Of a DNA stretch of 64,000 nucleotides, positions 1,403 through 1,681 are shown one piece after another. A model generated the notes under the pieces. That model was not told the DNA's origin and ran no database searches. It worked only from the letters and a program-made list of their open reading frames with translations. How positions within the stretch are numbered: position 1 is the stretch's first letter; each line of letters begins with the position of its first letter. The stretch is from assembly GCA_024742355.1 (NCBI GenBank), contig JANSYM010000006.1:1-64000 (forward strand), given 5' to 3'. The position numbers and the translations under genes were made by a program. The DNA is from Hyphomonadaceae bacterium. GTDB lineage: Bacteria; Pseudomonadota; Alphaproteobacteria; Caulobacterales; Hyphomonadaceae.

Positions 1403-1419
1403 TTCGCCTGTCAGGCGAA
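1403..1419. promoter_or_regulatory. Perfect palindrome upstream of the sigma-54 promoter
   Basis: TTCGCCTGTCAGGCGAA is an 8-1-8 perfect inverted repeat centred about 58 bp before the predicted sigma-54 start site. A dimeric activator or enhancer-binding protein could sit here. It is somewhat closer than most enhancer sites, so the role is tentative. Confidence 0.4.
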
Positions 1420-1441
1420 CGCCAAGCAAGTGATTCGAGCG

Positions 1442-1459
1442 CTGGCACGGGCGTTGCAG
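1442..1459 (+). promoter_or_regulatory. Sigma-54 (RpoN) promoter
   Basis: CTGGCACGGGCGTTGCAG matches the RpoN consensus YTGGCACGRNNNTTGCW at every constrained base. The invariant GG (1444-1445) and GC (1456-1457) are exactly 12 bp apart. Transcription should begin near 1469, about 29 bp before the ATG of the small peptide at 1498. Confidence 0.75.
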
Positions 1460-1497
1460 TTCTCTCAGGCATCAAGACTCAATCGAGGGGATGTCCG

Positions 1498-1596
1498 ATG
1501 AAAGCGCCGAAATATACAAGATCATTCTGCATTGGCGGCATGGGCCTGCTGGCCGCCGCGTCTCTGATCGCTGCCGCTTTGCCGGTGATTGCTTAA
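1498..1596 (+). CDS. Small 32-residue membrane peptide
   Basis: This short frame encodes 32 residues: a basic N-terminus (MKAPKYTRSF) and then one hydrophobic run of about 22 residues rich in Ala, Leu, Gly and Ile, ending almost at the stop. It could be a single-span membrane peptide or a signal-like sequence. GAGGGG (1485-1490) lies 7 bases before the ATG, a sigma-54 promoter lies upstream, and a hairpin terminator follows at 1650-1681, so it has all the parts of a transcription unit. I recognise no family. The alternative is that the transcript is a small RNA and the frame is incidental. Confidence 0.45.
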   Translation: MKAPKYTRSFCIGGMGLLAAASLIAAALPVIA

Positions 1597-1649
1597 AAAC
1601 AGCCGACCGCGTGGTCCCGCCACACGGATGGTTCCAGCCCAATAAAAAG

Positions 1650-1681
1650 AAGCCCCCCGCATGCGACCATGCGAGGGGCTT
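1650..1681. terminator. Bidirectional intrinsic terminator
   Basis: AAGCCCC-CCGCATG pairs with CATGCG-AGGGGCTT around a 4-base loop. On the minus strand the stem is followed by CTTTTTATT, ending dodecin transcription; on the plus strand it closes the sigma-54 small-peptide unit. Confidence 0.8.

Follow-up and report, generated by a model that had tools for sequence, protein, structure and literature searches.

The short unit around positions 1498-1596 of the window (the whole 64-kb stretch of DNA analysed here) is likely to be the 5' end of a former hfaA-hfaB-hfaD operon, the operon for the holdfast anchor, because its synteny, promoter, upstream repeat and first ~32 codons match hfaABD of related genomes. 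There is a good chance that, in one group of marine bacteria, loss of this operon left behind the signal peptide of HfaA, which would now be a free-standing inner-membrane peptide, and this peptide is probably still driven by sigma-54. On sequence grounds, the region is best read as a gene for a peptide that has a sigma-54 promoter to itself. A preliminary description of the window had proposed an undescribed peptide regulator or a stress peptide under such a promoter. The conservation of the peptide and the selection acting on it agree with a peptide under such a promoter. The unit derives from the start of a known operon, and the stress role found no support.

Composition of the unit

The sigma-54 (RpoN) promoter core TGGCACGGGCGTTGCA is located at 1443-1458 on the plus strand, with the -24 and -12 elements correctly spaced. 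It was previously called a flawless RpoN promoter, and it is indeed an exact match to the consensus. In the 64-kb window it is the sole match to TGGCACG-N4-TTGCW with no mismatch, and the other 12 of the 13 matches listed have two mismatches. A lone match to the core is weak evidence, since TGGCAY-N5-TTGC has 25 matches in the window's own genome (G000) compared with 10 for the reversed control pattern. It is the conservation of the core, kept in all four genomes of the clade described below, that makes the site at 1443-1458 convincing.

An inverted repeat of 17 bases, TTCGCCTG-T-CAGGCGAA, was found at 1403-1419, 40 bases before the -24 element, and it is not assigned to either strand. Its centre lies about 58 bases before the transcription start expected near 1469, and the 8-1-8 palindrome of the preliminary description is exact. 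We predict it to be the enhancer-binding-protein site of the hfa promoter. The repeat pattern by itself is unspecific and does not convince, because TTCSCC-N5-SGCGAA alone gave 12 strand matches at 10 places in the window's genome and the control gave 5.

The ribosome-binding site GAGGGG at 1485-1490 on the plus strand ends 7 bases before the ATG at 1498, as had been claimed, and a GGG-rich tract is present at about the same place in three related genomes (G028, G008 and G024). The 32-codon frame MKAPKYTRSFCIGGMGLLAAASLIAAALPVIA that follows (1498-1596, plus strand) contains the hydrophobic stretch attributed to it, with a best 19-residue Kyte-Doolittle mean of 2.12. Comparison with HfaA of relatives identifies it as the HfaA signal peptide, with mature HfaA absent. 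Promoter, repeat, ribosome site and frame together are a real unit.

The unit had also been described as isolated. This is true today, with a divergent CBS-domain gene (833-1264) and a convergent dodecin gene (1705-1905) as neighbours, both on the minus strand, and a histidine kinase gene after the dodecin gene; in its history, however, the unit was the beginning of an operon. The strong terminator ascribed to it is a GC-rich hairpin at 1649-1682, evaluated by folding and a terminator scan and not assigned to one strand in our feature list. Folding energies are strong for either strand (-25.6 kcal/mol on the plus strand and -32.8 kcal/mol on the minus strand), but the scan of 1200-2000 reported the hairpin for the minus strand alone, with one terminator found and 1.2 expected in shuffles. 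Since the T-run follows on the minus strand only, the hairpin looks mainly like a terminator for the dodecin gene, which is convergent, and this fits better than a terminator of the peptide unit. A plus-strand transcript may also end there, in which case the hairpin would be shared.

Two further observations concern the surroundings. A block GACCATAGCACAGCTTT at 1299-1315, ahead of the CBS gene, is shared without change by G000, G028 and G001. It differs at one base in G008, G024 and G003 and at three bases in G015, and it is probably the promoter of the CBS gene itself. Positions 1-108 of the window are the 5' end of a 16S rRNA gene on the minus strand, so that the window starts inside this gene. 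The contigs G003:C4, G015:C214 and G024:C22 also start within 2 kb of the unit, which may reflect breaks of the assemblies at the rRNA operon.

Correspondence to hfaABD in relatives

The unit DNA was compared with 61 genomes, 29 of them of the same genus. Matches with E <1e-6 were confined to the genus and to seven genomes with the window's own counted (G000, G028, G008, G024, G003, G015 and G001), while all genomes match weakly at a loose cut-off. In G003, G001 and G015, this promoter and these codons for the signal peptide run on into a full gene, and the gene order is CBS < > hfaA-hfaB-hfaD < dodecin < histidine kinase. The window has the same order minus the body of the operon. HfaA (NF037934) was above the curated cut-off in the proteins scanned from G003 and G001, as was HfaB (NF037935) in the next protein scanned from G003, and HfaB and HfaD were over their cut-offs in all three genomes.

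The peptide of the window aligns with residues 1-35 of HfaA (E 6.4e-7), and its genome matches HfaA over these residues only. The NF037934 profile covers residues 32-133 and 30-133 of HfaA in two relatives, which is the part absent here, and no mature HfaA domain (NF037934) was found in the window's genome. The unit thus agrees with the 5' end of hfaA in its place, its promoter and its signal peptide. Judged by eye, the charged start and hydrophobic stretch of a Sec signal peptide are present and the mature part is absent, so the frame was not scored as a complete Sec signal peptide. In the relatives with full-length HfaA, the signal-peptidase site expected by eye is A-x-A before QE. The frames of the four genomes with the peptide only (G000, G028, G008 and G024) end in VIA, VIS, VIA and MVA followed by a stop, all at this site or within a residue of it.

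Distribution across the genus

HfaB was over the cut-off in 18 of the 29 genus genomes, and G007 had a single weak HfaB match of 23.7 bits, far below the cut-off. HfaD was found in 19 of the 29, the extra one being G026, a fragmentary assembly. In all 18 HfaB-bearing genomes of the genus the CBS gene adjoins hfaA divergently, and the arrangement of CBS with hfaABD is therefore taken as the older state. The dodecin and kinase genes follow hfaABD only in G003, G001 and G015 (the kinase gene also in G026), and they were not found within ~1.5 kb of hfaD in the other 15 operon-bearing genomes of the genus; this restricted distribution counts against our explanation.

In G000, G028, G008 and G024, neither HfaB nor HfaD gave any match at E 0.001, and only the signal-peptide part of HfaA is retained. 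The assembly of G028 is a single contig, and hfaB and hfaD are absent there. This peptide-only form is represented by four genomes, at least two of them metagenome-assembled. They form one clade with 99/98 support in a histidine kinase tree of eight genomes, in which the root was placed for drawing only and G013 is the most distant row, and this grouping is consistent with a single loss of the operon.

The CBS locus also occurs in other forms. In G013, the CBS, dodecin and kinase genes lie side by side, and in G007 the CBS and kinase genes share a 3.2-kb locus without dodecin between them. Both genomes are without an HfaA match, and no promoter core lies upstream of CBS in either. At E 1e-35, a CBS gene was missing from the matches in G006, G011, G023, G026 and G027, where the locus was thus unseen. 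The G007 assembly (L160) is 90% complete and is without an rpoN match, HfaD or the promoter unit. G016 has, at C49:551237-553309 (L095, L122), an additional set that resembles hfaA-hfaB-hfaD but is diverged and scores under the cut-offs for HfaB and HfaD, with no CBS match in the loci looked at.

Selection on the 32-codon frame

A lack of conservation of promoter and peptide alike in close relatives had been named as one of the findings that would refute the proposal, and the core and the frame are kept in all four genomes of the clade. Synonymous and nonsynonymous differences number 9 and 0 between G000 and G008, 13 and 2 between G000 and G028, and 18 and 2 between G028 and G008. The neutral binomial probabilities are 7.8e-6, 2.7e-6 and 7e-9, respectively, and these values are approximate since the binomial takes no account of mutation bias and the pairwise counts are interdependent. 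Identity of the frame is 80-91% among these three genomes and 67-75% with G024; that of the flanks is 41-55% upstream and 32-48% downstream. The comparisons with G024 gave 14.5 and 9.5 differences for G000, 19.5 and 9.5 for G008, and 19.5 and 12.5 for G028. The peptide of G024 is thus less conserved, and its 9.5 nonsynonymous changes from G000 are a point against our explanation.

In a neutral simulation at the distances of the neighbouring gene, which covered G000, G028 and G008 with G024 left out, start, stop and frame were kept in the three genomes in 1 of 20,000 runs, and one or fewer variable residues were seen in none of the 20,000. At half these distances the frame was kept in 91 of 20,000 runs, and again no run had one or fewer variable residues. 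The excess of synonymous changes and the retention of start and stop are those of a conserved small coding gene, and the frame is under purifying selection.

These results bear on the possibility that the unit is a decaying, functionless leftover of hfaABD that is conserved only through the short time elapsed. The mature operon is gone in four genomes, the repeat has decayed in three of the four, and G013 and G007 carry the CBS locus with neither a core match nor an HfaA match, all as decay would have it. However, the synonymous distances of the histidine kinase are about 1 or more, the flanks are only 32-55% identical, the changes in the frame are mostly synonymous and the neutral simulation does not reproduce its retention. 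Decay is already strongly disfavoured, and we assign it a low probability.

A small regulatory RNA in which the frame is incidental has a very slim chance of being correct. Conservation follows the codons, with nine of the nine differences between G000 and G008 at third codon positions. The leader and the downstream sequence are poorly conserved, and 1469-1530 folds no better than shuffled sequences (z +1.28). In its favour, the transcript unit is short, has a promoter to itself and is followed by a hairpin.

For the 32 codons, dN is 0.18-0.21 in G003, G001 and G015, the closest genomes that bear the operon, compared with 0-0.03 among G000, G028 and G008, and the synonymous distances of the histidine kinase are 1.5-2.1 among the three operon-bearing genomes and 1.0-1.2 among the latter three. 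On the basis of these values, constraint appears to be stronger on the orphan peptide than on the HfaA signal peptide from which it derives. The dN with G024, 0.15-0.20, is an intermediate case.

A special form of our explanation, not exclusive of it, is that the cleaved signal peptide of HfaA already had its own role in operon-bearing ancestors and that this role was kept after the loss. The four frames end at or within a residue of the expected cleavage site, as would be expected if the mature part alone could be spared, the motifs MKxPK and C-[IV]-GG are common to all seven genomes compared, and regulatory signal peptides exist (PMC12671168, in excerpt). The signal peptide of HfaA is nevertheless clearly different in sequence in the other 15 operon-bearing genomes of the genus, and the contrast in dN means that a role gained after truncation fits better. 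We regard an early role of this kind as unlikely.

The hfa promoter in relatives

HfaA matches at E 0.01 were obtained in 37 genomes, and 30 loci, one per genome, were examined for promoters. The genomes left out were the four with the signal peptide only and G045, G023 and G046, whose matches are weak (E 0.001-0.0054); the second, diverged hfaA copy of G016 was also set aside. TGGCAY-N5-TTGC was present within 280 bases upstream of hfaA in 25 of the 30 loci. In 19 of the 25 core-bearing loci, TTC[CG]CC-N5-[GC]GCGAA was found at -41/-42 of the sigma-54 site in a search that allowed up to three mismatches, and the 18 cases within the genus have none or one. Both core and repeat are thus upstream of hfaA in all 18 genus loci with HfaB over the cut-off, whereas outside the genus the core was found in 7 and the repeat in 1 of 12 hfaA loci. 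The exact combined pattern at fixed spacing occurred in 18 of the 61 genomes, once in each, with no match for the reversed controls. Seventeen of these sites are just before hfaA and one is before the peptide of the window. By this sequence correspondence, the promoter at 1443-1458 is identified as the hfa promoter.

In G028, G008 and G024, the core is kept and a repeat of the 1403-1419 type is not, with matches at chance level at best (the chance of a match at up to three mismatches is 0.0026 per position). The palindrome, which had been counted as part of the unit, is perfect in the window's genome and missing from the three relatives. Of all the results, this one speaks most strongly against full conservation of the control circuit, and the restriction of the intact repeat to the window's genome also weighs against our explanation. 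Since the repeat is intact in one of four genomes of the clade, activation may have changed or weakened.

Proposed origin and action of the peptide

In the explanation that we favour, a common ancestor of the window's genome and its three relatives would have lost hfaA from roughly codon 33 onwards, together with all of hfaB and hfaD, in one or more deletions, and the promoter, the ribosome site and the signal-peptide codons would have been left in place. Both synteny and phylogeny support such a loss of the operon body with retention of its 5' end. Selection would then have held the remaining frame as a stand-alone peptide of 32 residues, which is supported by the codon statistics. Sigma-54 polymerase at 1443-1458 and a GAFTGA-type enhancer-binding protein at 1403-1419 would produce a short mRNA starting at ~1469, and the peptide would insert in the inner membrane with its positive N-terminus in the cytoplasm and its hydrophobic segment spanning the bilayer. 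Because there is no cargo behind the cleavage site, the peptide cannot export anything, and it therefore most likely acts by contact with a membrane partner. We propose side-to-side contact with an inner-membrane protein in the course of the attachment or polar-development programme.

Enterococcal pheromones derive from lipoprotein signal peptides. The SpA signal peptide acts on PepV, a role beyond export (PMC12671168, in excerpt). In both systems, as proposed here, a signal peptide acts as a molecule of its own, but there it is cut from a full precursor, whereas in the present case no precursor is left and the gene product consists of the signal peptide alone.

Small single-span membrane proteins and type I toxins have about 30 residues, a positive N-terminus and one hydrophobic segment. 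The peptide is like a type I toxin in size, charge pattern and hydrophobicity, but it originated as a signal peptide with traceable descent from HfaA, and the unit is present only once in the genome. A consensus scan of 1200-2000, which is a weak test, gave no minus-strand promoter of the sigma-70 type, and no antisense regulator was seen in this simple scan. The chance that it is a toxin-like peptide of this class is slimmer still than that of a small RNA.

Compared with hfaABD (NF037934, NF037935, NF037936), the unit has the same place, the divergent CBS gene, the sigma-54 core and homologous first 32 codons, and in the window's genome also the upstream repeat. It differs in the absence of mature HfaA, HfaB and HfaD and in a frame that stops at or beside the cleavage site expected by eye. 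In Caulobacter, a complex of HfaA, HfaB and HfaD anchors the holdfast, and two of its members, HfaA and HfaD, are located at the cell surface (PMC6707917, in excerpt). Loss of holdfast genes has been reported in the same family for Hyphomonas neptunium, which is a similar case, but the accessible text mentions hfsAB alone as remaining and no retained signal-peptide gene (PMC3368421). The region upstream of Caulobacter hfaA has been used as an insertion site, and sigma-54 is not mentioned in the accessible parts of these reports (PMC6703425, PMC4489657). In the literature searched, mostly without subscription journals, we found no prior report of control of hfaABD by sigma-54 and the repeat, which may well be published, nor of a retained hfaA signal peptide.

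If the proposal is true, a secretion signal became a gene after losing its cargo and the whole anchor operon. This would be a traceable route to a small membrane-protein gene, in which all that was behind the signal peptide is lost and the regulated promoter is kept. The genus includes genomes with the full precursor, with the signal peptide only and with neither, so that the question of whether cleaved signal peptides act can be tested within it. We consider it possible, at somewhat below even odds, that the HfaA signal peptide persists after this loss as a sigma-54-controlled membrane peptide of 32 residues whose function is sequence-specific, maybe because it was already active when cleaved in operon-bearing cells. 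For hfaABD of this genus, the survey also brings to light a conserved sigma-54 promoter that has an upstream repeat at fixed spacing.

Candidate activators

The rpoN gene was found in 28 of the 29 genus genomes, including all four peptide-only ones, and no rpoN match was found in G007. Of the eight Sigma54_activat matches in the window's genome, five are strong, with E values of at most 1.8e-28, and the others are weak. The GAFTGA motif is needed for work with sigma-54. Among the five strong matches it was read in L032, L033 and L031, the last of which (contig C16) we take to be a TacA-like response regulator, and it is absent in L034 and L035, presumably NtrX- and NtrC-like from their neighbourhood. 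The genome thus contains both rpoN and GAFTGA-type activators. A missing GAFTGA in NtrX/NtrC-like regulators has also been reported for Caulobacter (PMC10274813, in excerpt). The TacA model was absent among the 25 of 112 matches listed. Since TacA governs sigma-54-dependent stalk genes in Caulobacter (PMC10274813, in excerpt), L031 is our first candidate for the activator at 1403-1419. The presence or absence of a TacA-like regulator was uninformative in identifying it, as 27 of the 29 genus genomes have one.

L033 (G000:C4 9492-12980) comprises pspF divergent from pspA, with a near-consensus sigma-54 site, TGGCACGGTCCTTGA, before pspA. PspF was rejected as the activator: this candidate site differs at one core base, and no hfa-type repeat was seen in the 105 bases before it. 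L032 (1036-2544, minus strand) is a LuxO-like sigma-54 activator whose first ~110 residues are unlike a receiver domain, the receiver profile being matched only from profile position 68; its start is shortened, frame-shifted or wrongly called.

A scan of the 25 core sites of the window's genome for an activator site in common showed the repeat near -40 at none of the others, and the single near-match, located at -19 before L133, is probably due to chance. Several other sigma-54-like sites (L129/L130, L143-L146 and L141) precede genes that we take, by eye, to be glycosyltransferase-like and Tad-type pilus-like, which suggests a surface or attachment regulon.
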